The notes beneath the pieces were generated by a model. The model had not been told where the DNA came from, did no database searches, and saw nothing but the letters and a program-made list of their open reading frames with translations. From positions 1-50,148 of the forward strand of contig JABHIW010000083.1 of the NCBI GenBank assembly GCA_018670825.1: a DNA stretch of 50,148 nt, written 5' to 3'. Origin of the DNA: Candidatus Scalindua sp. GTDB taxonomy: Bacteria; Planctomycetota; Brocadiia; Brocadiales; Scalinduaceae. Below are positions 3,736-43,876 of the stretch, one piece after another. The position numbers and the translations under genes were made by a program. Each line of letters begins with the position of its first letter. Positions within the stretch are counted from its first letter, which is position 1.

Positions 3736-3873
3736 AAACAGATATTCCTAAAAATGGTATGTAGATTTAATAAAATACAGGAGGGATTTTAACAACAAAA
3801 GGAGGTTTAAAGCATATTAACCGTTTTCATCAGAGCCTTCGCATAAACATTTTGTTTTTTTTATAGCATTCTG

Positions 3874-3895
3874 TCTTCGGCACTTTTGTCCGGGG
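3874..3895 (+). repeat. dispersed repeat A, copy 1 (CTCGGCGCCTTTTGTCCGGGG family)
   Basis: Reads TCTTCGGCACTTTTGTCC followed by GGGG. It belongs to a 22-24 base intergenic repeat found at least seven times in this window (also 4406, 7037, 7064, 16712, 44332 and, inverted, 46061). It is followed by an AATTCGCGAAA..GTGTCTAATCC phrase that also recurs at 4430 and 16622. Confidence 0.75.
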
Positions 3896-3914
3896 AAATT
3901 CGCGAAAATTGTGT

Positions 3915-4205
3915 CTAATCCTTGAATTTAGACATAATTGTTTCAGTGTAGCTTATCATATCATCAAATATACTGTCGATGCCATCTCTTAAGCCTTCCC
4001 ATACGCTTTCATGTGCTTTCTCCAGTTCTTCATGCTTTTTTCTGGCAAGTTTCTGCTTTGTCTTCAGGCGTTCAATATGATCAATGTACTCCACCTTGTC
4101 CTCCGGCGTAGCCTGTTCAACCTGGGATTCAAGCTTGCAAATTTTGTCTTCCCACTCACTTAACTCAACATCCAGTTTATGTAAATAATCTTTCCTTGCA
4201 CTCAT
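3915..4205 (-). CDS. small coiled-coil protein, unknown function
   Basis: A 96-residue soluble protein, almost entirely charged alpha helix with heptad patterning over about residues 8-72 (KLDVELSEWEDKICKLESQ, then HIERLKTKQKLARKKHEEL), followed by an amphipathic C-terminal helix. I chose the inner ATG at 4205 because GGAAGG lies about 10 bases upstream; the reading frame stays open to 4268, but the additional residues are not well supported by a ribosome-binding site. It resembles small coiled-coil stress proteins found in many environmental genomes; no precise family is claimed. Confidence 0.65.
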   Translation of the reverse strand: MSARKDYLHKLDVELSEWEDKICKLESQVEQATPEDKVEYIDHIERLKTKQKLARKKHEELEKAHESVWEGLRDGIDSIFDDMISYTETIMSKFKD

Positions 4206-4690
4206 AGCTAAGATCCTTCCACCTATTGGCAACATGTTAACGAGAAATAAATCTGGGGATGCGTTCATCTATAGTTGATAATAATTCGAATGAAAATTAA
4301 AGACAAGATAAATATTTGTGGTCATTAAGCTATATCTTTGAGTCATTAAGGGGTGTAAACCATAAATTACTTTCTGCTCTTCTCAGTAATCTCTGTGTTT
4401 TCTTGTCCTCGGCGCCTTTTGTCCAGGGGAATTCGTGAAATCAGTGTCTGTCTTTTGTCTTTTTCTAGGTTTTTAGTTTTTCTTTGTGTTCTTAGCAGCT
4501 TTGCGGTGAACAATCTTTTATCTTGCAAAACATCTTGACTCATATATAATACAAAGTCAATAGACAGCTGTATCAGTTCACTTTGGCCACGTTGCACACT
4601 GCGGAATCATCATATACTAAAGCTCCTGTTGTTAATAAATACAGATTTTAACATATAAACAATTTACCTATTTTACGAAAAGAGAAGGTT
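4206..4690. other. intergenic region with dispersed repeats
   Basis: No convincing gene. Repeat A copy 2 is at 4406-4429, followed by a phrase at 4430-4483 (GTGTCTGTCTTTTG, then CTAGGTTTTTAGTTTT) that recurs at 15633-15687. Words resembling CTTTGTGTTCTTAGCAGC also belong to the intergenic vocabulary of this genome. The last 70 bases hold the AT-rich upstream region of the ABC-F gene. Confidence 0.6.
4406..4429 (+). repeat. dispersed repeat A, copy 2
   Basis: TCCTCGGCGCCTTTTGTCC then AGGGG; differs from copy 5 (16712) by one inserted A. It is embedded in the phrase TCTTGTCCTCGGCGCC, as in copy 5. Confidence 0.8.
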
Positions 4691-6337
4691 ATGCTAAAGA
4701 CACATGATATAAGTTTACGGTACGGAAAACGTGTACTATTTGAAAATGTAACTACAAAGTTCAGTCCGGGTAACTGCTATGGGGTTATTGGTGCCAATGG
4801 TGCGGGCAAATCAACGCTCCTTGACGTTTTGTCAGGGGATATTGAGCCATCATCCGGAAATATAAGTGTTTCTCCGGGCAAGAGAATTGCCGTTTTAAAA
4901 CAGAACCAGTATGAGTTTGACGAATTTGAAGTATGTCAAACGGTGTTAATGGGGCATAAAAGGCTTTTTAAAATTATGGTTGAAAAGGACGCCATTTATG
5001 CAAAGAGTGATTTCAGCAATGAAGACGGAATGAAAGTTTCCGACCTTGAAGATGAGTTTGCTGAGCTTAATGGATGGGAGGCTGAAAGTGAGGTGTCTAC
5101 TCTTTTAAGTGGACTTGGTGTAGCAAACGAACTGCATACAAAGAAAATGGCTGAACTTTCAGGTAATGAAAAGGTTAAGGTCTTGTTGGCGCAGGCACTT
5201 TTCGGAAGTCCGGACATTTTGTTGCTTGATGAACCTACAAACCATCTGGATATTCAATCCATTGACTGGCTTGAAGAATTTCTGATAAAATTTAAGAATA
5301 CCGTAATTGTCGTTTCACATGACAGACATTTTCTTAATAACGTATGTACTCATATTGCAGATATAGATTACGGAAATGTTTCTATCTATACCGGCAACTA
5401 CGATTTCTGGCTTGAGTCTAGCCAGCTGGCTTTGGAGCAGACAAGAAACATGAACAAAAAGACAGAGGCTAAACGAAAAGAGCTTGAGGCATTTGTCGCC
5501 CGGTTTAGTGCAAATGCATCCAAATCAAAGCAGGCCACTTCCAGGAAGAAAACGCTTGAGAAGATGGTCATAGAGGAGATTAAGCCTTCATCAAGAAAAT
5601 TTCCTTTTATCCGTTTTATACCCGAAAGGCCAATAGGAAACAATGTACTCACAATAAAAAATATTTCCAAAAAAGTGGATGGGGAAGTCGCCCTTAATGA
5701 TATAACATTAACGGTCAACAATGATGATAAGATCGCTTTTGTCGGTACGCATGACCTGGCAAAAACCGCACTCTTTGAAATATTAATGGGTGAGACTAAG
5801 GCAGATAGTGGTGATTACACCTGGGGTGGAACAGCAATTCGATCGTCTTTGCCAAAAGATAATTCAGAATTCTTTAATGACGATGTCACTTTAGTTAACT
5901 GGCTTCGTCAATATTCCAAAGAGAAGGACGACAATTTTATAAGAGGCATTTTGGGTAGAATGCTTTTCAGCGGTGAAGAATCATTAAAAAAGGCCAATGT
6001 ACTATCCGGTGGTGAAAAAGTACGCTGTATGCAGGCAAAGATGATGATAAGTGGGGCCAATGTACTGATTTTGGATGAACCCACTAATCATCTAGATCTT
6101 GAAACAATCACTTCGTTAAATGACGGGTTGATCGAATATAAGGGCGTTCTTATGTTTTCCTCTCGCGACCACCAGTTTATGCAAACAATAGCTAATAGAA
6201 TAATAGAGATAACGCCTTATGGTGTTATAGATAAAAAAATGACCTTTGATGAATATCTGGAAAGCCCTGTCATTAAAAAAATGCGTGAAGAGATGTATGA
6301 GAATAGTAACAATCGGGGAGACACTATACCTATTTAA
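4691..6337 (+). CDS. ABC-F family ATPase, YbiT/YkpA type
   Basis: A soluble twin-ATPase protein of the ABC-F class, which acts on the ribosome rather than in transport (family knowledge). NBD1: Walker A GANGAGKST (residues 34-42), signature LSGNE (156-160), Walker B ILLLDEPTNHLD (from 176), H-switch VVSHDRHF. A linker rich in charged residues follows (about 240-300). NBD2: Walker A is GTHDLAKTA, signature LSGGEKVR, Walker B VLILDEPTNHLD, and the H-switch region reads SSRDHQF, with Arg where His is normal. The C-terminal NRIIEITPYGVIDKKMTFDEYL is typical of the YbiT/YkpA subgroup. Length (548) matches the family. The changed H-loop suggests asymmetric ATPase sites. Confidence 0.92.
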   Translation: MLKTHDISLRYGKRVLFENVTTKFSPGNCYGVIGANGAGKSTLLDVLSGDIEPSSGNISVSPGKRIAVLKQNQYEFDEFEVCQTVLMGHKRLFKIMVEKDAIYAKSDFSNEDGMKVSDLEDEFAELNGWEAESEVSTLLSGLGVANELHTKKMAELSGNEKVKVLLAQALFGSPDILLLDEPTNHLDIQSIDWLEEFLIKFKNTVIVVSHDRHFLNNVCTHIADIDYGNVSIYTGNYDFWLESSQLALEQTRNMNKKTEAKRKELEAFVARFSANASKSKQATSRKKTLEKMVIEEIKPSSRKFPFIRFIPERPIGNNVLTIKNISKKVDGEVALNDITLTVNNDDKIAFVGTHDLAKTALFEILMGETKADSGDYTWGGTAIRSSLPKDNSEFFNDDVTLVNWLRQYSKEKDDNFIRGILGRMLFSGEESLKKANVLSGGEKVRCMQAKMMISGANVLILDEPTNHLDLETITSLNDGLIEYKGVLMFSSRDHQFMQTIANRIIEITPYGVIDKKMTFDEYLESPVIKKMREEMYENSNNRGDTIPI

Positions 6338-6442
6338 TATAGATTTCTACACATAGTAATAAGTTATAATACTATTAATCATGCAGACCATTCAATACTA
6401 ACAGGAAAATAATTTCTATTATAACGTAATAAGGAGATTGTC

Positions 6443-6910
6443 GTGGCTGTCAACAGATTAAAGGCGTTTCTTAATGATAATAAAATTAAGTATATATCAT
6501 CTTTTCATTCGAATGCCTACACTGCACAAGAAGTTGCTGCTTCTGCTCACATACCAGGAAGAAAAATAGCAAAAACCGTTATGGTTAAGATTGATGGTAA
6601 GATGGCTATGGCTGTTTTGTCCGCCTCCGACAAGGTGGACTTTGACCTCATACAGGAAGCTGCCGGAGCGAGTAAAGCTGAACTTGCCGGCGAACAAGAA
6701 TTCGCGGACCTGTTTCTAGGCTGTCATATTGGCGCTATCCCTCCATTCGGAAATCTTTATGAAATGCAGGTCATAGTGGATGAAAAACTTTCCGAACAGA
6801 CTGAAATTGTCTTTAACGCGGGTTCCTATACTGAGCTGATTACCCTGCATTATGAAGATTTCAAAAATCTGGTAAAACCGTGTGTAGCAAGCATTTCAGC
6901 TGATAATTAG
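6443..6910 (+). CDS. YbaK/EbsC-type aminoacyl-tRNA deacylase
   Basis: A 155-residue single-domain protein of the YbaK/ProX superfamily, which hydrolyses mischarged aminoacyl-tRNA, often Cys- or Ala-tRNA(Pro), or pairs with other substrates (family knowledge). The domain pattern is visible: YTAQEVAASAHIPGRKIAKTV near residues 26-46, with the conserved lysine of the TVMVK strand, and IGAIPPFGN near 105-113, the typical G-x-PP-G loop. The start is GTG at 6443 with AAGGAG 7 bases upstream. The substrate cannot be read from sequence. It stands alone, 105 bp after the ABC-F gene, perhaps co-transcribed. Confidence 0.88.
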   Translation: MAVNRLKAFLNDNKIKYISSFHSNAYTAQEVAASAHIPGRKIAKTVMVKIDGKMAMAVLSASDKVDFDLIQEAAGASKAELAGEQEFADLFLGCHIGAIPPFGNLYEMQVIVDEKLSEQTEIVFNAGSYTELITLHYEDFKNLVKPCVASISADN

Positions 6911-7036
6911 ACACTTGTTAATCGTAAATTTGAAATCGTTATTTATCATTAGTCAAGAGTAATTCGTAAATCTCTTAATTTATCAATACCTTAATTATTT
7001 CTTCTGCCTTTAACTTCGGTATTTCTCTGTGAAAAG

Positions 7037-7059
7037 TCCTCGGTGCCTTTTGTCCGGGG
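7037..7059 (+). repeat. dispersed repeat A, copy 3
   Basis: TCCTCGGTGCCTTTTGTCC followed by GGGG. Copy 4 begins only four bases after this one ends, giving a local tandem of the repeat. Confidence 0.8.
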
Positions 7060-7063
7060 AAAG

Positions 7064-7086
7064 TCCTCGGCGTCCTTTGTCCGGGG
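7064..7086 (+). repeat. dispersed repeat A, copy 4
   Basis: TCCTCGGCGTCCTTTGTCC followed by GGGG, in direct tandem with copy 3 (spacing AAAG). Confidence 0.8.
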
Positions 7087-7122
7087 AAGTCCCTGCCAGA
7101 TGATTCGTGTGGCGGGTGTGAC

Positions 7123-7154
7123 CCAATTCTCCAATTCTCCAATTCTCCAATTCT
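7123..7154. repeat. 8-bp tandem repeat CCAATTCT x4
   Basis: Four exact consecutive units of CCAATTCT. The related words GGAATTGGGGCATTGAGG (23591) and AATTGGAGCATTGAGG (42432) occur elsewhere, so this is part of the same repeat vocabulary rather than an isolated microsatellite. Confidence 0.9.
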
Positions 7155-7464
7155 TCATCCTTTAGTCCTTAAATCGTAAATCAGAAATCGTAATTCGTAA
7201 ATCAAATATCTTGCCACTGGTATCTTGCTTCTTGTCTTTTCTTTTCTCCTGTTTTTCCGTCTTTGTCTTTTATTCATCACTTTGCCTTCTCAGCGGCTTT
7301 GTATGAGGTATCTCTTTTGCCTTTTCATAAATTAACTGGTTAGTTATTATTATAATTGCTATATACCATGATAACCTTGGAACTTAAATTTTTTTTCAAA
7401 GGATTTGTATCTTCGTATCGTCTAATATACGGAACAGTCTAAGTAAATAGAACAGTACCTAAAT

Positions 7465-8010
7465 ATGGAAAACCAGGATGATATTGAATTAGTAGTATTG
7501 GCTAAACAGGGGGACTCCGTTGCGTTTGAAAAACTGGTTGAACGGAACTATATCTTCGTATACAAGGTTTCCTACAAGTGGTGTGGAGTTAAGGAAGATG
7601 CAGAAGACATTACGCAGGATGTTTTTATGAAGCTTGCCGGAAAGATACAAAGCTTTCAAGAATCATCAACTTTTCAGACATGGTTATATAAAGTGACTAT
7701 CAATACTGCTAAAGATTTTGTAAAAAAGAGTAGTAGAAAACGAAAAAAGGAGATGGCCTATTCAGAACAGCAGGAAATAGATAGTGAGTCAAATCAGGAA
7801 GAAGATTCAATATCCGAGATAGTACATAATCTGATTACACGACTGCCGGATAAGCTGAAAGAGACGGCACTGCTTGTGTTCTGTGAAGGTATGAACCATA
7901 AAGAGGCTTCAGTTATACTGAATTGTTCTGAAAAGACCGTTTCATGGAGAATATATGAGGTGAAGAAAAAAATGAAGAGTAATTTAAAAACTGATGAGGT
8001 TTTATGGTAG
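7465..8010 (+). CDS. ECF-type RNA polymerase sigma factor
   Basis: A 181-residue sigma-70 family factor lacking region 3. Region 2 covers about residues 20-90, with the polymerase-binding helix EDAEDITQDVFMKL and the -10 recognition part FQTWLYKVTINTAKD. A charged linker (about 92-120) leads to region 4 (RLPDKLKETALLVFCEGMN, then the helix-turn-helix EASVILNCSEKTVSWRIYE). The gene overlaps the next one by 7 bp (8004-8010), so the two are translationally linked. The neighbour has an anti-sigma-like N-terminus, and the pair very likely forms an ECF/anti-sigma switch for the envelope genes that follow. No strong ribosome-binding site is visible ahead of the ATG. Confidence 0.93.
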   Translation: MENQDDIELVVLAKQGDSVAFEKLVERNYIFVYKVSYKWCGVKEDAEDITQDVFMKLAGKIQSFQESSTFQTWLYKVTINTAKDFVKKSSRKRKKEMAYSEQQEIDSESNQEEDSISEIVHNLITRLPDKLKETALLVFCEGMNHKEASVILNCSEKTVSWRIYEVKKKMKSNLKTDEVLW

Positions 8011-10166
8011 ACAAGAAAGACATAAATAAAATTTTGCAGGAAATGGAAATTCCCGAACCGGATGAAGCAGTTAAGAATGCTGCGATTAAAGCATCTGTAG
8101 ATGAGTTTAACCGGCAAAGGGAATCTTTACAAAAAAACATCAAAGGAAATGAAACCGAACGGCGTCTAATTGGCAGAATCCAAATATTTCTCAACCTTTT
8201 AGGAGGATATGCCATGAAGAGGTCATATGTTATTGCAGGTGGCGTAACAGCATGTGTAGCAATCTTAGTAGTTAGTCTTACCTATTTGTCAGTAGATCTG
8301 AATAAGGCACCACAGCCTATAAATGTTCTCACTGTGCCAACGCACAAAGAAAGTAAATTAGCTGTTATCGAAGAATCTGCTGTCGTAAATGGATCTGTAA
8401 GTCCGCAAAAAAAGGAAATGCAGATTGCTGATCAATATGCTATGTCAGAAAAATCAACTTCAGATGGTTCGTACGGAGTCTCTTCACTAACAGGTAGAAA
8501 ACAGGCAATGACACGTCAACAGGCAAACAAGCAGAAACGGTCTTATGCAGCGCAGGGAAGTGGTGGATCTGTAGCATACAATTATCATATTGGAGCACCA
8601 AAAAGCAGTATGCCTTCATATTACCCACCGAGTGTTTCATCAGATTCAAGACCTGGTGTCGTATATGAAAATCGGATAGGTTTACCGGTTCCCCGTGATC
8701 CGATTTCATCTGAACAGGAAGGGCATATACAAAACAAGGAAACGGGACGTGATAAATTCGATACCATAGAGACAAATCCGGTTAAACAGGTAAAAGATGA
8801 GCCTGTTTCTACTTTTTCAATAGATGTTGATACCGCGTCATACTCATTCGTACGTCGTCAGATAAATAATGGAGTGCTTCCGCAGGAAAATGCGGTACGT
8901 ATCGAAGAGATAATCAATTATTTCGATTATGACTATGCTGTTCCGGATGACAAGATAAAACCATTTCAACCAACAATTGCTGTTTATCCTACACCATGGA
9001 ACGATAACTCAAAACTCCTGCATATCGGAATAAAAGGATACGATATTGTTCCTGAAAAGAAACCGCAATCAAACCTTGTATTTTTGTTAGATGTTTCAGG
9101 CTCGATGAATGAACAGGATAAGCTGCCTCTCCTAAAGAACTCATTCCGTCTGCTTGTTAATTCACTGGATGAAGAGGATACGGTTGCAATAGTGGTCTAT
9201 GCCGGAGCTGCCGGTACAGTTCTCGAACCGACGAGTGTTAAGGAAAAAGGAAAGATCCTGTCTGCCCTGGACCAATTAAATGCCGGGGGATCCACCGCCG
9301 GTGGAGAAGGAATTCGAAAGGCATATGACCTTGCGGAAGCAAATTTCAAAAAAGAGGGTGTAAACCGTATCATATTAGCTACAGACGGAGACTTTAATGT
9401 CGGAATCTATGATAAGGAAGAGTTAAAAAGTTTTATAGATAGAAAGAGAAAGAGTAGAATCTTTTTGTCTGTCCTGGGTTTCGGTCAGGGAAATTACAAT
9501 GATGCCTTGATGCAGAAGTTGGCTCAGAACGGAAATGGAAACGCATCTTATATTGACAACCTTAATGAGGCAAGAAAGGTACTGGTTGACGAAGCCAGCT
9601 CTACACTGTTTGCTATTGCCAGGGACGTAAAAATACAAATTGAGTTTAATCCGAAGCTGATTGCCGAGTACCGCTTGATAGGGTACGAGTCCCGGATGTT
9701 GAAACGTGAGGACTTTAATAACGACAAAGTTGACGCGGGAGACATTGGTTCAGGACATACGGTTACGGCCATCTATGAAATTATACCGGTTGGAAGCAAA
9801 GACAGACTGGTTGATGATCTTCGTTATAGTAGTAAAGAGAAAGAGAGTACTGAGAGTGAATTAAGTGACGGTGAGTATGCATTTCTAAAGATCCGTTATA
9901 AACTGCCCGGTTCCGAAAAGAGTGAATTGATTACTGCACCCGTAAAGAAAGAAAGTGAATTTACTCAGATTAATCAGGTTCCAGCAGACATTCGATTTGC
10001 AGCTTCCGTTGCAGGATTTGGACAGATTTTACGAGGAGGGACCTACACGGCTGAATTTACCTATGATGATATCATTAAGCTGTCAGAATCAACAGTGAGC
10101 AAAGATGAATTTGGATACCGGCAGGAATTTCGTAATCTGGTCAGACTTGCAAAAGCAATTGAATAG
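8004..10166 (+). CDS. fused anti-sigma-like / von Willebrand factor A (YfbK-type) membrane protein
   Basis: A 720-residue protein. Residues 1-70 are cytosolic and helical, like anti-sigma regions next to ECF genes. One membrane helix spans about 74-95. A low-complexity Ser/Gln/Tyr-rich linker runs to about 250. The VWA N-terminal domain begins near 260 (FSIDVDTASYSFVRRQINNG), then comes a VWA domain with MIDAS motif DVSGSM near 363, the Thr in GGSTAGG and LATDGDFNVG; the C-terminal DUF3520-like part ends with YRQEFRNLVRLAKAIE. Orientation implies the VWA domain lies outside the cytoplasm. It overlaps the sigma gene and probably holds the sigma factor at the membrane (inference). An excellent internal ribosome-binding site precedes in-frame Met71. 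Confidence 0.9.
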   Translation: MVDKKDINKILQEMEIPEPDEAVKNAAIKASVDEFNRQRESLQKNIKGNETERRLIGRIQIFLNLLGGYAMKRSYVIAGGVTACVAILVVSLTYLSVDLNKAPQPINVLTVPTHKESKLAVIEESAVVNGSVSPQKKEMQIADQYAMSEKSTSDGSYGVSSLTGRKQAMTRQQANKQKRSYAAQGSGGSVAYNYHIGAPKSSMPSYYPPSVSSDSRPGVVYENRIGLPVPRDPISSEQEGHIQNKETGRDKFDTIETNPVKQVKDEPVSTFSIDVDTASYSFVRRQINNGVLPQENAVRIEEIINYFDYDYAVPDDKIKPFQPTIAVYPTPWNDNSKLLHIGIKGYDIVPEKKPQSNLVFLLDVSGSMNEQDKLPLLKNSFRLLVNSLDEEDTVAIVVYAGAAGTVLEPTSVKEKGKILSALDQLNAGGSTAGGEGIRKAYDLAEANFKKEGVNRIILATDGDFNVGIYDKEELKSFIDRKRKSRIFLSVLGFGQGNYNDALMQKLAQNGNGNASYIDNLNEARKVLVDEASSTLFAIARDVKIQIEFNPKLIAEYRLIGYESRMLKREDFNNDKVDAGDIGSGHTVTAIYEIIPVGSKDRLVDDLRYSSKEKESTESELSDGEYAFLKIRYKLPGSEKSELITAPVKKESEFTQINQVPADIRFAASVAGFGQILRGGTYTAEFTYDDIIKLSESTVSKDEFGYRQEFRNLVRLAKAIE
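8201..8216 (+). promoter_or_regulatory. internal Shine-Dalgarno and in-frame ATG inside the VWA gene
   Basis: AGGAGGATATGCCATG: a full AGGAGG 7 bases before the in-frame ATG at 8214 (codon 71). The short product would start MKRSYVIAGG, just before the membrane helix, and would lack the anti-sigma-like region. This is a better ribosome-binding site than that of the long form. Confidence 0.6.
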
Positions 10167-10324
10167 ATGCATGTCACAACAAGAGTTAAAGGAGAGATTT
10201 AATATGGAACCGTACTTATCTTCTTGATTTTGTTAACTGCTTGAGTATTATAAATTCAAGAATTTCTATTATCTGTTGGGCTTATCCCATACAGACATAG
10301 GCTTTTAGATGAAGGAGATGAAAC

Positions 10325-10537
10325 ATGTTGTTTTCAAAGCGATTAAAGAGTTCTTCATTGGAAATGATTTCAACAATTATCCTAATAGCTACCGTCCTTA
10401 TATTGTCGGGTTGTGGCGATAGTAATGCTCCGGGAGATGCCCAACGGGAACAAATAACAAAGCCGGTTGATCCTATATTTAACGATATAGGAAAGACAGT
10501 TCTCCCTTCTGTGGAAAAACCACCAGAAGTAAAATAA
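10325..10537 (+). CDS. small lipoprotein
   Basis: A 70-residue exported lipoprotein. The N-terminus is basic (KRLKSS), followed by a hydrophobic stretch and the lipobox LSGC at residues 27-30, so mature protein would begin at the cysteine and carry only about 41 residues, rich in proline and charge, with no recognisable domain. AAGGAG lies 6 bases ahead of the ATG. It sits between the VWA gene and the TPR gene. The 158-bp gap before it contains a tiny frame (10204-10227, seven residues after GGAG) that may be a leader or a remnant. The family is not recognised. Confidence 0.7.
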   Translation: MLFSKRLKSSSLEMISTIILIATVLILSGCGDSNAPGDAQREQITKPVDPIFNDIGKTVLPSVEKPPEVK

Positions 10538-10704
10538 CAAGATAAAGAAGCTGAATACCTTGTAAAAATCGTGAAATAATGTTAAGTCTGAATATGTATA
10601 TGTCTTAAATATAGTAAAATATCTCGTTCGTGGAAGGTCTTAAAAGATGCCTGTGATCGTCAATTTTATATCATCTATCAATCCCTTATTGAGGGAGGTA
10701 TGTA

Positions 10705-12078
10705 ATGATACAATTTAAGCCCTCAAAATGGCTTGCCTGCCTTTTTCTTTTCCTGTTACCCATTATGCTGGGTATTTGCTTTGCTTATCCGTTATATGGT
10801 GGTTCACAGGGATACGGCTGGTGTCCGACCTGTGGAAGGGATATGCCAGACTCACACTTCCCCCATGGAGGAGGCGGTGGTGGTGGCGGCGGAGGTTATG
10901 GTGGCTATACTCCAGGACCGTCTCCACAGGAACAACAGGCTAGTGCTGCAAACAGAGAAGGTCTCAGTTACGAAAAGAGTGGTGATTGGGATAACGCTAT
11001 AAAATCCTATAGAGAAGCGCTAAGGCTTAATCCGAATGAAAGAGTTTTTCTTCTAAATCTTCAGGATGGTATAAATAACAAAGGTGTAGCACTCCACAAG
11101 AATGGAGATTATGAGAGTGCTTTAAGATTGTTTGAAGAGGCGCTAAGGCTTAACCCGGACTATCCGAACGGACGCAGGAATATCCGAGTGGCAAAGGGTC
11201 ATATAATCAACAGGGAGGGACTTGAATACTTTAACAATGAAGATTATGACAGCGCTATAAGCTATTTTGAGGAATCGATAAGGGTTAATCCTGAAGATCA
11301 AACAGCCAGGGGAAACCTTGCTGAAGCCAGAAAGAGAAAGAGAGAGCAGGCAGAGTCAATACAGCTTGAGGATCAATGGCGCAAGGATGAGCAAAGACGT
11401 AAAGAAGAAGAAGAGAGAATTGCGAGAGAAATAGAGGAACAAAAACGTGAAGAAGGAGAACGAATTGCGAGAGAAATAGAGGAACAAAAACGTAAAGAAG
11501 AAGAGCGGATTGCGAAGGAAGTACTGGAACAAAAGCGTAAAGAAGAGGAGCGAATTGCAAAGGCAATGGCAGAACAAAAGCTCAAGGAGGCTACACAGAG
11601 GGTAAATAATATGCTTGATGGTCTGGCAAAAAAGTTAGGCGCTTCTACTGGCACCTCTAAGTCATCCAACTCTTCAGGTTTGAGATTAATGAGGCCTGTC
11701 GGCGCCCGCCTCTTTGAGAAAGGTACCAAAGACTCTGCTCCAGTTGATCTAAGACTTATGCCTCTAAACAAACCTCTCGTGGGGTATCCGCCTCTTTCCG
11801 AAGGAGAGCAGCTACAGACGCAGTCCACTGGTAAACAAACTGCGGAGGATTCTAAAGGTGAGATATCGAATCTAAAGATTGATGTATTGCTTGAAGCCTT
11901 GGGACCTGGAAAGACATGGGACGAAAGCATATCATATTTGGAAGATAAGCTTGCTCATGAACAGGATATAAAAAAGAAACAAGCTATATGTGATGCTATT
12001 GCAGACACAAAGAAGGCAGCGGATACAGATAATACGCAGCAATACCTTGATGACTTCTTTAAGCAGATATATCGTTAA
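10705..12078 (+). CDS. secreted TPR / coiled-coil protein, C-terminal repeats cut by a nonsense codon
   Basis: A 457-residue protein with a signal peptide (about 1-28), a CPTC motif near residue 40, a glycine run of about nine, three TPR units (about 80-195; e.g. GDWDNAIKSYREALRLNP, GDYESALRLFEEALRLNP), then a long Glu/Arg coiled coil made of repeats of EERIAREIEEQKR (about 210-300). The C-terminal part begins a repeat module (GEISNLKIDVLLEALGPGK). Translation stops at TAA 12076-12078, but the same frame continues with a second copy of the module to 12606. In the homologous unit the stop is GAA. The present protein is therefore probably truncated. GAGGGAGG precedes the ATG. The TPRs suggest a scaffold role in the envelope. 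Confidence 0.85.
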   Translation: MIQFKPSKWLACLFLFLLPIMLGICFAYPLYGGSQGYGWCPTCGRDMPDSHFPHGGGGGGGGGGYGGYTPGPSPQEQQASAANREGLSYEKSGDWDNAIKSYREALRLNPNERVFLLNLQDGINNKGVALHKNGDYESALRLFEEALRLNPDYPNGRRNIRVAKGHIINREGLEYFNNEDYDSAISYFEESIRVNPEDQTARGNLAEARKRKREQAESIQLEDQWRKDEQRRKEEEERIAREIEEQKREEGERIAREIEEQKRKEEERIAKEVLEQKRKEEERIAKAMAEQKLKEATQRVNNMLDGLAKKLGASTGTSKSSNSSGLRLMRPVGARLFEKGTKDSAPVDLRLMPLNKPLVGYPPLSEGEQLQTQSTGKQTAEDSKGEISNLKIDVLLEALGPGKTWDESISYLEDKLAHEQDIKKKQAICDAIADTKKAADTDNTQQYLDDFFKQIYR

Positions 12079-22527: not shown

Positions 22528-22902
22528 ATGAAGCTTATCAAAGTTGTGTTAAAGCCTGAAAAGACTATGGACCTTAAAGACTTACTGACCAATTTAGGGT
22601 ATCATGGGATTACGACTAAACATACTGCTGGATATGGAGAAGATAAAAAAATAGTAAAACAGATATACCGTGGAAAAGTTTACGAGCAAAGGGTAGACGC
22701 AGTAAAAAGAGAAGAGTTGGAATTTATTGTGGCAGATTACCGGGTAAAAAGCGTTATAGACTCCATCAGAAGTGTTACGAAAACTGAAGAGGGTGGTGAT
22801 GGGAGAGTATACGTGCTTCCTATAGAACAATCAATTCACATCCATACCGGTGACAGGCATATAGGTGACTCCACGGAGACTGGTTTTTATGGTGATATTT
22901 AG
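22528..22902 (+). CDS. PII family nitrogen regulatory protein, copy 1
   Basis: A 124-residue trimeric signal-transduction protein that binds ATP/ADP and 2-oxoglutarate and controls nitrogen transport or metabolism (family knowledge). Visible landmarks: MKLIKVVLKPEK start, T-loop region QIYRGKVYEQRVDAVK with Y52 at the position of the uridylylated Tyr51 of GlnB, the ELEFIVAD strand, and the C-loop GGDGRVYVLPI. The T-loop differs from GlnB/GlnK and the C-terminus extends about 12 residues. No amtB, glnA or nif gene is adjacent, so the target is open. It is roughly 60% identical by eye to the next gene. Expression may be tuned by the leader and the G10 tract. Confidence 0.92.
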   Translation: MKLIKVVLKPEKTMDLKDLLTNLGYHGITTKHTAGYGEDKKIVKQIYRGKVYEQRVDAVKREELEFIVADYRVKSVIDSIRSVTKTEEGGDGRVYVLPIEQSIHIHTGDRHIGDSTETGFYGDI

Positions 22903-23042: not shown

Positions 23043-23417
23043 ATGAAACTTATTAGAGCTATTACGAGACCGGAAAAGGCATTGGCGCTGAAGGACCTTT
23101 TAGCTGATTCAGGGTATCATGGGATTATGAATACGGAGTGCTACGGTTACGGAGAAAGTAAAAAAATAGTAAAACAGATATATCGTGGAAGAGTTTATGA
23201 ACAAAGGGTAGATGCAGTTCAAAGAGCAGAACTGGAATTTGTTGTCCCGGATAATAAAGTTGACAATGTAATAAGGACAATTAGAAATGTTGCCAAAACC
23301 AATCATGGTGCTGATGGGCGTATATATGTGTTTGCAATGAATGACTCAGTCCATATTAATTCAGGTAGTGAACATTTGGGTGATTCTAGCGAAAAGGACT
23401 TGCATGATGAGTTTTGA
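23043..23417 (+). CDS. PII family nitrogen regulatory protein, copy 2
   Basis: Paralogue of the preceding gene, same length (124 residues). The segment KKIVKQIYRGRVYEQRVDAV in the T-loop is almost identical to copy 1, while the region after residue 70 diverges (NHGADGRIYVFAMNDSVHI). It keeps the tyrosine at the GlnB Tyr51 position. GGAG lies about 9 bases before the ATG. The 140-bp gap after copy 1 contains TTGAGT, 17 bases, TATCAT (22990-23018), a possible promoter, so the two could be expressed separately or together. Having two copies suggests hetero-trimers or differential expression. Confidence 0.92.
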   Translation: MKLIRAITRPEKALALKDLLADSGYHGIMNTECYGYGESKKIVKQIYRGRVYEQRVDAVQRAELEFVVPDNKVDNVIRTIRNVAKTNHGADGRIYVFAMNDSVHINSGSEHLGDSSEKDLHDEF

Positions 23418-23681: not shown

Positions 23682-24083
23682 TCAATAGCCCAGCTTTTCA
23701 AGTTCCGGATAGAAATGTTCTTCTTCAAAAGCTATTCTATCTAAAATTGCACCCTTTAAACCGGTGAAATCACCCATGAATTCTTGACTGTCTACGGTAC
23801 CGGATGATGAGTATTTATCAAAAAACGGTAATAACGCTGATTGGGCAATGTTGCCGAGTTCATCCAGAAAATTTTGTGCTGATGACTTAAAAGATCCATC
23901 TGTTTCAGGCTTATCCATCACTTCCTTTATGACACTGTTTTCTTCTCCAATATGGGACAGTAAAGCCTCCTTTAAACTATTTAGTGTATCAATTCTCTGT
24001 TGTCCGCTCGCCGACCCAATTTGTTCTAATAAACCGGTTGCTGTCTGGTGTGTTGATTTAAAAGTATCTACCGTCGCTCCCAT
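23682..24083 (-). CDS. hemerythrin-like (HHE) protein
   Basis: A 133-residue four-helix-bundle protein with the di-iron ligand pattern of the HHE/hemerythrin family: H12 (KSTHQT), H44 and E48 (LSHIGEEN), and a C-terminal EEEHFYPELEKL with E122 and H123. A helix with ALLPFFDKY may supply a further ligand region, but no histidine is present there, so the metal site may be incomplete compared with classical hemerythrin. Roles in the family include O2, NO or iron sensing. CAAGGAGA-type signal (AAGGAGAACTCT) precedes the ATG. Convergent with the PII pair. Confidence 0.82.
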   Translation of the reverse strand: MGATVDTFKSTHQTATGLLEQIGSASGQQRIDTLNSLKEALLSHIGEENSVIKEVMDKPETDGSFKSSAQNFLDELGNIAQSALLPFFDKYSSSGTVDSQEFMGDFTGLKGAILDRIAFEEEHFYPELEKLGY

Positions 24084-35553: not shown

Positions 35554-37086
35554 ATGAAAAACATAAAAATAAATGGTGAGGACCTGACATTTTCTCAAGT
35601 TGAGTATGTCGTTAGAGGTGAAGCGAAGATATCTCTTGATAAAGATGTGAAGAAAAGGGTGAGCGCTGCGCAGAGAATTATTAAGAAGGCGTTAGATGAA
35701 AAAAAAGTAATTTACGGCGTAACAACTGGGTTCGGGGCGTTGAGTGGGACCTTCATATCTAAGGACAAAAGAAAACAGTTACAGAAGAATATAATTTTGA
35801 GCCATTCAGCCGGTGTTGGCGACTGTTTTGATGAGGAGGTTGTTCGTGCCATAATGCTACTGAGAATAAATGACCTTGCGAAAGGTCATTCAGGAATCAA
35901 GTTTGAAACATTACAGACATTGATAGAAATGTTGAATAAAAGGGTACATCCGGTTATTCCGGAAAAGGGTTCAGTGGGGGCAAGCGGTGATTTAGCGCCG
36001 TTGGCACATCTGGCTTTGGTATTAATCGGAGAAGGTAAAGCTGTTTTCAAAGACAAATCACTTTCGGGTAAAAAAGCGATGAAGAGTGCGGGAATAGCAT
36101 TACGTGAACTTGAAGCAGGTGAAGGTTTGGCGCTGATTAATGGTACACAGGCGATGACCGGTATTGGGGCAATAGTGGTTGCTGATGCTATCAAATTACT
36201 GAAGAGTGCTGATATCGCCGCAGGAATGAGTCTTGAGGTGTTACTGGGTTCTGGTATTGAGCTAAACGAGAGGATTCATAATGCAAGGCCACATAAAGGA
36301 CAAACAACCAGTGCCGATAATCTAAGAAGAATAACTGAAAATAGTGATATAATGTCCTCACATGAGGATTGTTCAAGAGTTCAGGATGCGTATTCGATAA
36401 GATGTTGTCCTCAAGTACACGGAGCTTCTATAGATGCCCTTAATTATGTGAAGAATATAATAGAGACAGAGATGAATTCTGCAACAGATAATCCACTTAT
36501 TTTTCAGGATACCGAAGAGGTATTTAATAACGGTGGTAATTTCCATGGGCAACCAGTTGCATTAGCCATGGACTTTCTTGCAATAGCCCTATCAGAGATT
36601 GCAAGTATATCAGAAAGAAGAATAGAGAGGCTGGTAAATCCTCTACTGAGTGGCTTACCTGCATTTTTGATTGACGATCCCGGTCTTAATTCAGGTTTTA
36701 TGATAGCACAATATACAGCGGCTTCTCTGGTTTCAGAGAATAAAGTTTTATCACACCCTGCAAGTGTTGATTCTATACCTACATCAGCCAACAAGGAAGA
36801 TCACGTAAGTATGGGTACTATTGCGGCAAGAAAGTGCAGGGAGGTTCTTTATAATACGGAAAATGTAATTGCTATCGAATTACTGTGTGCGGCTCAGGCC
36901 CTTGATCTCTTTACAAATCTCAAAGCCGGTACCGGAAGCATTGATGCTTACAAAGTAATAAGAAAACATGTTCCTCACCTTGAAGAAGATAGAATCATTT
37001 CAAATGATATAGAAATGATGTATAATCTGGTTCACGATGGTAAGATAGTTTCGTCAGTAGAAAAAAAGATTGGAGTACTAAAGTAG
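35554..37086 (+). CDS. hutH: histidine ammonia-lyase (aromatic amino acid lyase family)
   Basis: A 510-residue lyase that deaminates histidine to urocanate using the autocatalytic MIO cofactor. The MIO triad Ala143-Ser144-Gly145 is in GSVGASGDLAPLAHL, the catalytic Tyr54 in IYGVTTGFG, and S83-H84 (IILSHSAGVG) is the selectivity pair typical of histidases rather than Tyr or Phe lyases. RVQDAYSIRCCPQVHGA and FHGQPVALAMDFLAIALSE also fit. No other hut gene is adjacent, so it may serve an alternative pathway. AGAGAG precedes the ATG weakly. Confidence 0.92.
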   Translation: MKNIKINGEDLTFSQVEYVVRGEAKISLDKDVKKRVSAAQRIIKKALDEKKVIYGVTTGFGALSGTFISKDKRKQLQKNIILSHSAGVGDCFDEEVVRAIMLLRINDLAKGHSGIKFETLQTLIEMLNKRVHPVIPEKGSVGASGDLAPLAHLALVLIGEGKAVFKDKSLSGKKAMKSAGIALRELEAGEGLALINGTQAMTGIGAIVVADAIKLLKSADIAAGMSLEVLLGSGIELNERIHNARPHKGQTTSADNLRRITENSDIMSSHEDCSRVQDAYSIRCCPQVHGASIDALNYVKNIIETEMNSATDNPLIFQDTEEVFNNGGNFHGQPVALAMDFLAIALSEIASISERRIERLVNPLLSGLPAFLIDDPGLNSGFMIAQYTAASLVSENKVLSHPASVDSIPTSANKEDHVSMGTIAARKCREVLYNTENVIAIELLCAAQALDLFTNLKAGTGSIDAYKVIRKHVPHLEEDRIISNDIEMMYNLVHDGKIVSSVEKKIGVLK

Positions 37087-39479: not shown

Positions 39480-39803
39480 TTAAGCATAGGATATCTTGGT
39501 TATAGGGTAATTCACACTCGAACCACTTCTGTCTTTTGCCTGTACATGAGTCCATGGTTCCTCACCGTCAGTCATTCTTACGAAATGGAAAGGTAATGGT
39601 TGGCGTTGCTTCGGTCCACCACTCGGATTAATGGTAATACTAATTGTTAAAATCTTTTCATTAATTGCATGTTCGTCGTCCTGTTCTGCAATCACTTCGT
39701 CATCAAAGGAGTCAGCCATTATAATACCATCAACCCTCAGGAATTTTGTTTTTGCTCTTAAGTCCCATTCCGCTTTCGTTATCTTAATCTTCAAAGTTTC
39801 CAT
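39480..39803 (-). CDS. small conserved-type protein, unknown function
   Basis: A 107-residue soluble protein. It begins METLKIKITKAEWDLRAKTK and contains FLRVDGIIMAD, an acidic stretch DDEVIAEQDDEHA and a strand-rich C-terminal half with ISITINPSGGPKQRQPLPFHF. The final part carries TDGEEPWTHVQAKDRSGS. I prefer the ATG at 39803; the ATG at 39815 directly abuts the AGGGG site. It precedes the histone gene by about 105 bp in the same direction and may be co-transcribed. Function unknown. Confidence 0.6.
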   Translation of the reverse strand: METLKIKITKAEWDLRAKTKFLRVDGIIMADSFDDEVIAEQDDEHAINEKILTISITINPSGGPKQRQPLPFHFVRMTDGEEPWTHVQAKDRSGSSVNYPITKISYA

Positions 39804-40085
39804 ATGGTTAATCATCCCCTATTAAATAAGTTGAATAAATTGTACTTAATGGAATTAGTCAAAACACTAAAGATTTACAACATCTTTTACTTCGTGTACC
39901 TTAGCAAATACATAAGGAATTGCAAGACTAAAAAGCCTGATCTATTTCTTGTAATTTATAATAAAAATCAATCATATAATGTTCCGTAATTAAAGAAAAT
40001 TAATGACTTTGAGTGATTTGTTTATAGAATAGACGATACAGAAACACAATATAATTTGTATCAAACAGAAATGGAGGAAAGAGAG

Positions 40086-41222
40086 ATGTATGTTACCGGA
40101 ATTGGCAGAACAAAGTTTGGAGCACTAACAGAAACTATGCCGGAACTAATCTATCAGGCAATGTATAACGCTATAAATGATAGTCCTATTTCCATTGAAG
40201 ATATAGGGGCTGTATATGTCAGCAATTTTATTGGCGGTCCGTCTCAGAAACAGTTGCATCTGAACTCAGTAGTATCTAGTCTGCTTCCTGAGCTGAGACT
40301 GCCGATTATACGTGTTGAAACGGCATGTGCGTCCGGTAGCAGCGCTCTCTATCAGGCGATAATCGCTTTATCACGATTCGAAAATATTCTGATAGTTGGT
40401 GTAGAAAAAATGAGCAATACGACTTCTTCTGAAAGCTCTCAGAACCTGGGAATGGCTGGAGATCGAATGGCAGACCAGATGCAGGGTTTGATTTTCCCGG
40501 CGCATTATGCCCTTGTAGCCCAACAGCACATGCAGAAATATGGTACTACCCATGAGGACCTCGAGTTGGTCGCATTTAAAAACCACAATAACTCCAGGCT
40601 AAACCCACTAGCTCATTTCAGTCATAAGGATGTAAGCCTTGAAATGATAAAAAACGCACCCGTTATAGCTTCTCCGTTGAACCTATTTGATTGCTCACCG
40701 ATTTCAGACGGTGCAGCAGCTGTCGTAATTTCGAAAAATAAAAGAGGCGACAGGGATGTGAAAGTGAGGGGGTCGGCTCTGGCTACAGACCATATCTCTT
40801 TGTCTCACCGAAAAGTACACACCTCTCTTGAGGCAGCAAAAGTGGCGAGTAAAGAGGCATACGAACTTGCAGGGATTACTCCTAAAGATCTGGATATCGT
40901 AGAGGTCCACGACTGTTTTACGATCAACGAACTTGTTGCTATGGAAGATCTTGGCATATGCAAGCCGGGGGAGAGTAAAGATTGGGTCAGGGAGGAGAGG
41001 ACATCTATCAAAGGTGACGTACCTATAAATACTGATGGAGGTTTAAAGGCGGATGGTCACCCAATAGGTGCTACCGGTCTCGCGCAGGTGTTTGAAGTTA
41101 CGACCCAACTCCGAGGTGAAGCTGGAGAGCGCCAGGTAGATGGGGCTGAGGTTGGCCTGACGCACAATATTGGTGGCGTCGGTGGGACGGCCGTAATACA
41201 TATTCTTGAAAGGAGGGGTTAA
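40086..41222 (+). CDS. SCP2-type thiolase
   Basis: A 378-residue thiolase of the sterol-carrier-like / archaeal acetoacetyl-CoA thiolase class. The nucleophilic Cys81 is in VETACASGSSALYQ, followed by VHDCFTINELVAMEDLG (His/Cys site) and GLKADGHPIGATGLAQV with the catalytic His of GHP. Start at ATG 40086, GGAGG 8 bases upstream, rather than 40056. This class normally needs a DUF35 OB-fold partner; that partner is the N-terminus of the next protein, whose gene starts 1 base after the stop. Likely condenses or cleaves 3-ketoacyl-CoA. Confidence 0.92.
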   Translation: MYVTGIGRTKFGALTETMPELIYQAMYNAINDSPISIEDIGAVYVSNFIGGPSQKQLHLNSVVSSLLPELRLPIIRVETACASGSSALYQAIIALSRFENILIVGVEKMSNTTSSESSQNLGMAGDRMADQMQGLIFPAHYALVAQQHMQKYGTTHEDLELVAFKNHNNSRLNPLAHFSHKDVSLEMIKNAPVIASPLNLFDCSPISDGAAAVVISKNKRGDRDVKVRGSALATDHISLSHRKVHTSLEAAKVASKEAYELAGITPKDLDIVEVHDCFTINELVAMEDLGICKPGESKDWVREERTSIKGDVPINTDGGLKADGHPIGATGLAQVFEVTTQLRGEAGERQVDGAEVGLTHNIGGVGGTAVIHILERRG

Positions 41223-41223
41223 C

Positions 41224-42330
41224 GTGGTATACGAGTGTGAAGATTGCCAGAAACAGTGGTATTATAACGTAAAAAAATGCATCTTCTGCCAGGGGAATGT
41301 CGTAGAACTGGAGCCAAGCAAGAGCACGGTAAGAGGAATCACTAAGATAGAGATCCCTTCACCCGGACACACCAGAGTCCCTTATTGTGATCTTCTGTTA
41401 GAGGACGAATATGGAAACTTTGAAATAAGGAAATCTTTTTCAGATCATGATTTGGGTGAAATAATAGAGGCGGTGCCGAAAGAAGCTAAAAAGGTAGCTA
41501 AAAGCAGGACTATAGGAATAGTGGGTGCGGGGACGATGGGTAGCGGTATTGCTCAAATTTGTGCTCAAACAGGTTATCATGTTCTCGTGATTGACCGACA
41601 TGAAGAGACCGCCAGAAAGGCACTCATAAAGATCGATAAAGCACTTTCTAAAAATACTAAAGATGATTTGAAACAGGAAATTCTCAGCAGGATCAAGGCG
41701 ACAACCAACCTGTATGAGATGGAACATGCCGACCTTATCATAGAGGTATTAACGGAGGATATGGAACTGAAGAAAGAGGTTTTCAGGGAATTGGATAACG
41801 AGTGTTCCAAAGATACCATCTTTGCGACCAACACCTCCTCGCTTTCTGTAACTGAGTTATCTGAGGTTCTGAAAGATCCTGGCAGGCTTGTAGGTCTTCA
41901 TTTTTTCAATCCGGTTCCGAGAATGAAATTGGTTGAGATAATAAAGTCAAAAAATACATCTGATGAAGCTGTCGAATATGCAAAGGAGGTTGCGTTCGAG
42001 TTGGATAAAACACCGGTGATTACCGGCGACGCTCCCGGCTTTATTGTAAATCGACTTCTTCTGATATTCTTGAATGAAGCTATAGATAAATACGCCGATG
42101 GTACTTCAACAGCAGCGGACATTGATAAGGCCGTGACGCTGGGCCTTAATCATCCCATGGGGCCGTTGGCATTATCAGATCTAATCGGTCTTGATGTTTG
42201 TAAGGCAATTCTGGATGTGTTGTATGAAGGATACAAAGAGCCCAAATACAAGCCATGCAAAACACTATGCGAGATGGTGGAGAAAGGTACGCTTGGCAGA
42301 AAGACAGGAGAAGGATTTTATAAGTATTAA
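41224..42330 (+). CDS. DUF35 (Zn-ribbon/OB-fold) fused to 3-hydroxyacyl-CoA dehydrogenase
   Basis: A 368-residue fusion. Residues 1-85 form a Zn ribbon (C5, C8, C19, C22: YECEDCQ then CIFCQ) and an OB-like part (GITKIEIPSPGHTRVPYCDL), as in DUF35 thiolase partners. Then comes the NAD domain with IGIVGAGTMGSGIAQICAQTG (about 97-117), the ATNTSSLSVTELSEVL segment and HFFNPVPRMKLVEII, and the C-terminal DAPGFIVNRLL of 3-hydroxybutyryl-CoA dehydrogenases. Start GTG 41224, AGGAGG 7 bases upstream within the thiolase end. Together with the thiolase it could channel acetoacetyl-CoA to 3-hydroxybutyryl-CoA (inference). Confidence 0.9.
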   Translation: MVYECEDCQKQWYYNVKKCIFCQGNVVELEPSKSTVRGITKIEIPSPGHTRVPYCDLLLEDEYGNFEIRKSFSDHDLGEIIEAVPKEAKKVAKSRTIGIVGAGTMGSGIAQICAQTGYHVLVIDRHEETARKALIKIDKALSKNTKDDLKQEILSRIKATTNLYEMEHADLIIEVLTEDMELKKEVFRELDNECSKDTIFATNTSSLSVTELSEVLKDPGRLVGLHFFNPVPRMKLVEIIKSKNTSDEAVEYAKEVAFELDKTPVITGDAPGFIVNRLLLIFLNEAIDKYADGTSTAADIDKAVTLGLNHPMGPLALSDLIGLDVCKAILDVLYEGYKEPKYKPCKTLCEMVEKGTLGRKTGEGFYKY

Positions 42331-42514: not shown

Positions 42515-43876
42515 ATGAATGATAATAAAAAACTTGTTGAAGAACTTGCAGATAAAATTAAAACAGGTGACGTCCAGCCCTGGAAGGCTGAATCAGTCCT
42601 GCTTGAAGAATATAATGTCAGTGCTCCCGATCATTTTCAAATTGCGGCATTAAGTAGAAGGAAGTGCATAGAGGAGTTAACCGGTCATAAGTTTAATTAT
42701 TTGGAGTTGCCGGAAAAACCTTACTTGATGCAATGGCGCTGCCCAAAAGATAACTCTATCTGGCAGTTGGAAGCGAGGGACACGGATACCGTCTGTACTC
42801 ATTGTGGATCCGTACTGGAACCGCATAGATCTGAATCAGATAGATTTCTACCGCTGGTAAATAACTATATCGGTGGTAAAGAAGAGTACTACTCCTCTGC
42901 TGGTCAGATAAAGGTCTTTGGGGATGTTGATAAAACCTTTACTAATTTATTAGCCTATGGTCCCGGATTTGGGTCTATCGGGATCAGTGTCGGTTGTTTC
43001 AGAGTAAATAAATTGGGTGGTGCGGAAGTAAAAGTAGGGAAGTGGGCCGGTGCTGCTCGTAATTTAGGATATATTTTTGAGAGTGAAGAGGAACGCGAAA
43101 AAGCGGTTACGGTAGCGAAGGAACAGCTTCCGGTGTTAAGAAAAGAGATGGAGGAGAAATTCCTTGCTGAATTCAGTGGAGAGATTTACGAGGTTGAATT
43201 TGTCAGGCGTCAACACCACGGACAGTTTTTTATCTACATCTGTTTCTATACCAGATTTGAACATGCTCGTGGACACGGTGTTACTTCAGCAGCAGTAGGA
43301 TTTGCCCGGGGCCGTCTGGATGCGGAATTCGGTGCTAATAATGTTGCATTCATTCAGAGCCTCATCGCTATGGGCTTTGATGGTGACCTGAAGCCGTCAC
43401 CGAGAAACCGGCGTGGACGTTATGTCTCCGCACAGGTTAAAGTGCCTATACCGGCTTACGAGAAAATGAGCAAGACTAGTATTGATAAATTGATGTCGTA
43501 TATGGAGATTGACCGTCAGGGAGTTATGCAGGAACAGGGAGGGTTTGTTTACTCAGGAATGGGAGGGGAAATAATTCCCGCACTCTACCGGGGAACTAAA
43601 GTCAACCCGCGTCCGTATAACGTCTCTTGTACTGAAAATGTCTATGTTGAAATCAGGGGAGAAGAGGTAATATTCGGAGTAGAACTTCCTAACCTTGAAG
43701 TAGGTGCCACTTCTAACAGAGAAGGGCCGATCTGCCCTACAGCCAGGGAAGTCCTTAAGTTTATGGGAATAGGGACGTCAAAAGAGTTTGCAGCCGCAGC
43801 TGCCGCCATAACACTGGCAGGAGAGTTCAACTTCACCCTGCTTCACTTGCGTGGCGAAATGTATGTGAGTAAATAG
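42515..43876 (+). CDS. HMG-CoA-reductase-like protein with Zn ribbon, active site divergent
   Basis: A 453-residue protein. Residues 70-100 hold a ribbon with C76, C94 and C97. The remainder can be aligned by eye to HMG-CoA reductase: NNYIGG (115-120) at ENVIG, GVTSAAVGF near 255 at the DAMGMN region, DLKPS (K293) at the catalytic DKKPA lysine, the PRPYNVSC segment at GQDAAQNVG, and a clear C-terminal match (ELPNLEVGATSNREG, PTAREVLKFMG, AITLAGEFNFTLLHLRG). In this alignment only the lysine is retained; the Glu, Asp and His of the catalytic set seem replaced. It may be a non-mevalonate relative or a binding protein. It lies 184 bp after the fusion gene, same strand. Confidence 0.7.
   Translation: MNDNKKLVEELADKIKTGDVQPWKAESVLLEEYNVSAPDHFQIAALSRRKCIEELTGHKFNYLELPEKPYLMQWRCPKDNSIWQLEARDTDTVCTHCGSVLEPHRSESDRFLPLVNNYIGGKEEYYSSAGQIKVFGDVDKTFTNLLAYGPGFGSIGISVGCFRVNKLGGAEVKVGKWAGAARNLGYIFESEEEREKAVTVAKEQLPVLRKEMEEKFLAEFSGEIYEVEFVRRQHHGQFFIYICFYTRFEHARGHGVTSAAVGFARGRLDAEFGANNVAFIQSLIAMGFDGDLKPSPRNRRGRYVSAQVKVPIPAYEKMSKTSIDKLMSYMEIDRQGVMQEQGGFVYSGMGGEIIPALYRGTKVNPRPYNVSCTENVYVEIRGEEVIFGVELPNLEVGATSNREGPICPTAREVLKFMGIGTSKEFAAAAAAITLAGEFNFTLLHLRGEMYVSK

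Follow-up and report, generated by a model that had tools for sequence, protein, structure and literature searches.

The window, which is the whole 50,148-nucleotide stretch analyzed here, is contig C55 of a 4.45-Mb Candidatus Scalindua genome. It carries a cassette of three genes in one orientation, the last of which encodes a 453-aa relative of HMG-CoA reductase (HMGR) that has lost the residues of a reductase. The coordinates assigned to this open reading frame by the first-pass annotation are exact, the gene is real, and the thiolase and dehydrogenase genes that the annotation placed before it do lie directly upstream. We call this protein and its relatives in Ca. Scalindua the HMGR-fold family. 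The features discussed below are the following:

40056-41222, + strand: cassette gene one, an archaeal-type (SCP2-like) acetyl-CoA acetyltransferase/thiolase, 388 aa (NF004720, Thiolase_C_1)
41206-42330, + strand: cassette gene two, a fusion of a Zn ribbon and a 3-hydroxyacyl-CoA dehydrogenase, 374 aa (3HCDH_N, 3HCDH)
42515-43876, + strand: cassette gene three, the HMGR-fold protein without reductase residues, 453 aa
42515-42709, + strand: helical N-terminus, aa 1-65, which aligns to the N-domain of class I HMGRs
42710-42844, + strand: putative Zn-ribbon insert, aa 66-110, C76-x2-D79-x14-C94-x2-C97, mostly a gap in aligned HMGRs
42860-42862, + strand: N116, at the Glu of the ENVIG dimerization motif; Ala in 1 of 11 family members
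42962-42964, + strand: P150, where HMGRs have the catalytic Glu (human E559, within TTEG of class I enzymes); 3 of 11 members have Thr instead
43055-43375, + strand: former NAD(P)-binding small domain, about aa 181-287; the AF2 model gives it a ferredoxin-like order, beta-alpha-beta-beta-alpha-beta
43385-43393, + strand: D291-L292-K293, matching human D690-K691-K692; Leu replaces the catalytic Lys and the residues on either side are retained; invariant in 11 of 11
43604-43606, + strand: N364, at the catalytic Asp of GQD (human D767), directly before PRPYNV; Asn in 11 of 11
43853-43873, + strand: C-terminus, G447-E-M-Y-V-S-K453; the catalytic His (human H866) aligns with the last residue

Adjoining the cassette and divergent from it is a gene for a 107-111 aa protein with no Pfam match (39480-39815, − strand). 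Elsewhere, the window holds a tandem pair of P-II (GlnB-type) nitrogen regulatory proteins of 124 aa each (22528-22902 and 23043-23417, + strand), followed by a hemerythrin-domain gene (23682-24083, − strand). It also holds a strongly matching aromatic amino acid lyase (35554-37086, + strand; PF00221, 660.7 bits), in what is an anammox-type genome.

The proposed kinship with HMGR had been drawn from three short motifs, ELPNLEVG, LAGEF, and DLKPS, and these do align with LPNLxVG, LAGEL/I, and DKKxx of HMGR. An HMM search, named by the annotation as a check, places aa 158-439 in PF00368, the HMGR family, above the cut-off (31.8 bits, cut-off 27, E 9.7e-8). Among five family members scanned, two fall under that cut-off (L029 at 25.8 and G275 at 19.8). 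A PDB sequence search with the 453-aa protein returned nothing significant, the best HMGR chain standing at E 1.8. Against 12 planctomycete HMGR rows, picked from 33 loci for an NAD(P) motif and GQD and amounting to 11 distinct sequences (L017 and L064 are the same gene), the family profile reached 98.4% and a score of 112.2 over 315 columns in hhalign; 60 column-shuffled controls reached at most 27.6 and the reversed HMGR 20.5. Because a motif-picked set favors intact motifs, we repeated the comparison on all 34 loci. The 33 distinct ones comprise 15 class I-like HMGRs, one of them from a viral-contig record, and 18 of class II type. Without motif choice, the family matched the class I-like set at 99.0% (score 134.3, 327 columns) and the class II-type set at 22.8% (score 36.6, 31 columns). 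A global alignment with three class I-type HMGRs spans 393 columns at 96.7% and leaves the Zn ribbon as an insertion. It extends over the N-region, where the match depends on L041 and L043, as L070 has no HMGR N-part. As a side observation, Planctomycetota have both class I-like (15) and class II-type (18) HMGRs among the 33 distinct loci (L040-L070 range).

Structure prediction, a second check named by the annotation, supports the assignment in the identity of its best matches and not in their significance. The first AF2 model (A2; 8 close sequences, no HMGR row) is of low confidence, with a mean pLDDT of 42. Its top three PDB matches in Foldseek are the archaeal HMGR structures 6hr8/6hr7, at E 1.2e-3 to 1.8e-3 and probability 0.99-1.00, and no match reaches E 0.001. 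Since unrelated ferredoxin-like proteins follow from rank 5 (E 1.2e-2), the fold support comes mostly from the small domain. To deepen the alignment, viral contigs were scanned for HMGR motifs; of the 75 loci found, one contig (L070, the same as L107) gave HMGR at E 1e-5. With the L070 row added, a second model (A6), also of low confidence (mean pLDDT 52), matched HMGR in the PDB at E 5.6e-12. That match is partly circular because an HMGR row guided the model, and the fold argument therefore rests on the first model. Judged by sequence comparison, the 453-aa protein is a distant homolog of class I-like HMGR over nearly its full length.

The annotation's central claim, an HMGR relative that has lost most of its catalytic residues, is borne out: all four catalytic positions are altered, and the same losses recur in all 11 aligned members. 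Four alignments, which agree wherever coverage allows, show the Glu, the first Lys, the Asp, and the His replaced. One assignment needed correction. N116 had been taken as the site of the catalytic Glu, which in fact aligns with P150; N116 stands at the Glu of ENVIG, a motif that reads NNYIG, NNYVG, or ANYIG in the family, with the Glu gone and the last part retained. The Asp expected in the PRPYNV region is indeed lost, its exact site being one residue earlier. The His expected at the LHLRGEM end is likewise lost, at a final residue that is variable in the family and beyond which HMGRs extend. The loss is also more extreme than first described. The DAMGMN (DAxGxN) NAD(P) motif is gone, replaced by an HARGHG-type segment in which A251-R-G-H254 is invariant, and the GTVGGGT loop of HMGR is gone as well. 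PMC3875450 names E559, S565, V683, S684, D690, K691, K692, N755, D767, and H866 as pocket residues of human HMGR. Of these ten, only D690 and K692 are retained; V683 has become the similar Ile284, and the S565, S684, and N755 positions are also changed. R590, which the same paper describes as contacting inhibitors, is retained as R182.

It is useful to ask whether such a protein could still be a reductase that works with shifted residues, K293 serving as the Lys and E352 and E448 standing in for the Glu, Asp, and His, perhaps with another electron donor. The invariance of D291, K293, and R182 (human D690, K692, and R590) would fit, as would a one-residue register error at the gapped DKK loop, where the Lys register may be one off because the adjoining loop is three residues shorter than in most aligned HMGRs. 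Against this stand the disappearance of DAMGMN and GTVGGGT, a chain that ends at the catalytic His, and the changes at S565, S684, and N755. Moreover, at least 90% of the 15 class I-like HMGRs keep any given one of the four residues (Glu, first Lys, Asp, and His), so the tetrad is not readily given up. We therefore regard a shifted-residue reductase as improbable. Going by what is known of the family, the predicted protein is unable to catalyze the HMGR reaction through its established mechanism, and we hold with high confidence that homology to HMGR is combined here with the loss of canonical HMGR chemistry.

The annotation had read C76, C94, and C97 as an inserted Zn ribbon. The insertion stands, and none of the three cysteines varies among the 11 family members, nor does D79, which may be a fourth ligand; the zinc itself is a prediction, as the Pfam match of the insert to Zn_Ribbon_TF lies below its cut-off (16 bits against 29, E 0.0086). 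The segment is likely Zn-binding, and its role is more probably in docking than in catalysis. We considered whether it was copied from the neighbor's Zn ribbon or from DUF35, and set this origin aside: the score is equaled by 53 of 500 plain shuffles and by 137 of 500 in which the Cys were fixed, and in a further hhalign comparison the value of 20.8 lies under the maximum of 23.3 in 40 controls.

The two upstream genes point to CoA-thioester chemistry. The thiolase matches NF004720 at 430.8 bits (cut-off 420) and Thiolase_C_1 at 7.6e-48, and its nearest PDB chains are 7yvy and 6esq, the latter named acetoacetyl-CoA thiolase. Its nearest relatives among plasmid records are haloarchaeal, at about 41%; the gene after the thiolase encodes a Zn-ribbon protein in a haloarchaeal record and a Zn-ribbon OB-fold protein in a Chloroflexota record. 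The fusion matches the Pfam families 3HCDH_N (3.6e-58) and 3HCDH (1.2e-33). Its N-terminal part consists of a CxxC...CxxC Zn ribbon and about 60 further residues, and is DUF35-like in layout only. The Pfam families zf-ChsH2 and OB_ChsH2_C found no match in this part of three fusion sequences at E up to 10, and both match two DUF35 proteins scanned alongside. Comparison with DUF35 by hhalign gave 31.1, where 40 controls averaged 21.4 with a maximum of 34.5. In related thiolase complexes, PMC12329534 describes DUF35 Zn-finger/OB domains as scaffolds that hold the partner enzymes together. A separate cluster in three genomes of the order Brocadiales, G392 (which also has the cassette), G416, and G354, combines a crotonase, a thiolase, a 427-aa thiolase, a stand-alone DUF35-type protein (identified by a Pfam scan of the G392 protein only), a 3HCDH, and two proteins of 555 and about 130 aa that by eye resemble a B12-dependent mutase pair (loci L145, at 3668-10953, L146, and L147).

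Across 62 Brocadiales genomes, the cassette is an all-or-none unit. Both the HMGR-fold gene and the fusion are full length in 11 of them, the same genomes in each case, and the thiolase (at least 78% identity) occurs in these 11 and in G414, where it is followed by the first 88 aa of the fusion and then by the contig end. Remnants of its 3′ end apart, the HMGR-fold gene was found only with the thiolase and the fusion among the genomes searched. The strict co-occurrence of the three genes supports the annotation's suggestion of a linked CoA pathway. In G392, which belongs to another family (71% identity), the genes around the cassette are different; the three genes therefore travel as a unit. 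A search of genome contigs, using close-relative patterns only, found eight loci labeled Scalindua or Brocadiaceae and one labeled Neomarinimicrobiota. A protein search of 392 Planctomycetota genomes gave matches in 10, namely 6 Brocadiales genomes and 4 with weak matches (E 1.0e-5 to 1.4e-4). We rejected these four as family members: L017-L019 are ordinary HMGRs, and G324 scores as an HMGR with PF00368. PF00368 itself occurs in 69 of the 392 genomes; in four it marks the HMGR-fold family (E 5.9e-4 to 6.7e-8), whereas the other 65 are stronger, with a best E of 5.5e-18 or lower, the weakest being fragments. Relatives of the HMGR-fold protein were absent from the viral contigs searched, both with a single query and with an alignment, and from plasmids at E 0.01.

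Some genomes retain only traces. Fragments of the 3′ end stand alone in 3 of the 62 Brocadiales genomes and on one contig labeled Neomarinimicrobiota, so the cassette is dispensable. The divergent 107-aa neighbor gene is kept at three of the four remnant loci and absent from L037, and the deletion end points differ among the loci. This suggests that the cassette has been lost repeatedly in small genomes (1.3-2.7 Mb), with misassembly of metagenome contigs a possible contributor. The contig labeled Neomarinimicrobiota (L010), whose genes look Scalindua-like by eye and whose cassette is a deleted version, is probably misbinned.

These remnants raise the question of whether the gene is simply a decaying, pseudogene-like vestige of an ancestral HMGR, as the missing catalytic residues and the deletion or truncation of the cassette in several Scalindua-type genomes might suggest. 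The intact copies say otherwise. Full-length frames persist in 11 genomes, and the ten distinct other family members are 71-92% identical to the query. The dN/dS of the HMGR-fold gene has a median of 0.066 and a maximum of 0.094 over 23 of 55 pairs, the pairs left out having been dropped for saturation; the corresponding medians are 0.060 for the fusion (39 of 55 pairs) and 0.034 for the thiolase (26 of 55 pairs). Purifying selection on the HMGR-fold gene is strong. Decay is thus refuted for the intact copies and fits the remnant genomes only; as an account of this protein we consider it extremely unlikely.

Where that selection acts bears on function. Across the 11 sequences, 237 of 453 positions are invariant, a property that comes cheaply because the sequences are so close. 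The N-region is least conserved (18 of 65 invariant), followed by the Zn ribbon (21 of 45), the small domain (52 of 107), the segment listed between ribbon and small domain (43 of 70), and the C-terminal large domain (103 of 166). By comparison, aa 284-303 have 15 of 20 positions invariant, and aa 349-380, around N364, have 27 of 32, the highest of the segments counted. Of the 83 residues that lie no more than five places from one of 12 mapped positions of the former pocket, 59 are invariant, versus 198 of 343 in the core (p 0.003, with the 12 positions picked after alignment). The former active-site segments are among the most conserved of the protein, and R182, D291, K293, E352, N364, H444, and E448 are candidate invariant residues of the old pocket.

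The main rival to a functional pocket is a pure scaffold, in which a dead HMGR dimer with its Zn ribbon would join the thiolase to the dehydrogenase, much as DUF35 does. Lost catalytic residues, an inserted ribbon, and strictly co-occurring genes are all in its favor, and so is the scaffold role given to DUF35 domains in related thiolase complexes (PMC12329534). However, a pure scaffold would rather be expected to conserve its outer surfaces, and here the pocket segments are more conserved than the ribbon or the N-region. In addition, the dehydrogenase has a Zn-ribbon domain of its own. We consider a pure scaffold unlikely. That the old pocket is conserved speaks more for a site of binding or catalysis than for a bare scaffold, and we lean toward a pocket that binds a ligand or has become newly catalytic.

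We found no other HMGR match in this genome, which is 93.5% complete, and DXR of the MEP isoprenoid route is present. The lone HMG-CoA-synthase match lies between large ORFs, of which one was scanned and proved to be a polyketide synthase. A mevalonate pathway was set aside on these grounds. At that locus (L155, G000:C16:52000-71000), a polyketide-synthase ORF (2202 aa), a second large ORF (at least 2807 aa), the HMG-CoA-synthase-like gene, and an enoyl-CoA hydratase are arranged as in a beta-branching polyketide cluster. A search of the genome for a PHB-synthase gene (PhaC_N) found none. The idea that the HMGR-fold protein supplies a hydratase missing from the cassette is weakened by four crotonase-family genes elsewhere in the genome, which make it unnecessary to invoke a missing hydratase to account for the gene.

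An old fold is probably in new use here, because the parts of a reductase have been lost, a likely Zn-binding insert has been gained, and the gene travels with two short-acyl-CoA enzymes. The HMGR-fold protein probably functions in a module with its two neighbors. In the module we envisage, the thiolase would make (or cleave) 3-ketoacyl-CoA, and the dehydrogenase would interconvert 3-ketoacyl-CoA and 3-hydroxyacyl-CoA. HMG-CoA is itself a 3-hydroxyacyl-CoA, and the HMGR-fold protein, descended from a binder of this compound, could accept a 3-hydroxyacyl-CoA in its old pocket. It might then catalyze a step other than a redox one (dehydration, hydrolysis, or acyl transfer) or hold the intermediate for transfer, with its Zn ribbon providing docking. 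We favor this reading, in which the HMGR fold has been repurposed and serves as a partner that is not a reductase and handles a 3-hydroxyacyl-CoA, with a probability of roughly 0.55. Its fullest version is more tentative: a three-part acyl-CoA machine in which the HMGR fold would now be a non-reductase enzyme acting on partner-supplied 3-hydroxyacyl-CoA, with new invariant pocket residues and the Zn ribbon as a docking handle.

It is also useful to contrast the cassette with characterized systems. Class I HMGR of Methanothermococcus thermolithotrophicus (PDB 6hr7/6hr8) shares with our protein near full-length homology, domain order, a ferredoxin-like small domain (in the model), and the LPNLEVG, LAGE, RGR, D-x-K, and R182 positions. 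Unlike that enzyme, the HMGR-fold protein lacks the catalytic Glu, Lys, Asp, and His, DAMGMN, and GTVGGGT; it has an altered ENVIG, an insertion of about 43 aa at the Zn ribbon, a shorter C-terminus, and no mevalonate context. The archaeal complex of acetoacetyl-CoA thiolase, DUF35, and HMG-CoA synthase (6esq, 6et9) has the same type of thiolase. In the cassette, the thiolase similarly adjoins a Zn-ribbon domain and the third partner is a relative of a mevalonate enzyme. That partner, however, is related to HMGR and not to HMG-CoA synthase, and the Zn ribbon shares a chain with a 3-hydroxyacyl-CoA dehydrogenase and is not recognized as DUF35 by Pfam. In the Shy-Sal and ChsH1-ChsH2-Ltp2 hydratase/aldolase complexes, as described in PMC12329534, a thiolase-fold enzyme likewise pairs with a partner fused to a Zn-finger docking domain, whereas the cassette has a dehydrogenase as that partner, no hydratase, and an extra HMGR-like gene.

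Among the open-licence papers searched, we found none on HMG-CoA reductase in Scalindua, on HMGR-like pseudoenzymes with altered catalytic residues, or linking thiolase to ladderane biosynthesis in anammox. HMGR is among the most studied of enzyme folds, and we know of no natural family in which this fold is kept and the whole catalytic set replaced. If the HMGR-fold protein binds or converts 3-hydroxyacyl-CoAs without reduction, a mevalonate-pathway enzyme would have been turned into a new part of a thiolase complex. The lipid chemistry of anammox bacteria is unusual and still poorly understood, and the cassette would then provide a testable acyl-CoA module in these organisms.
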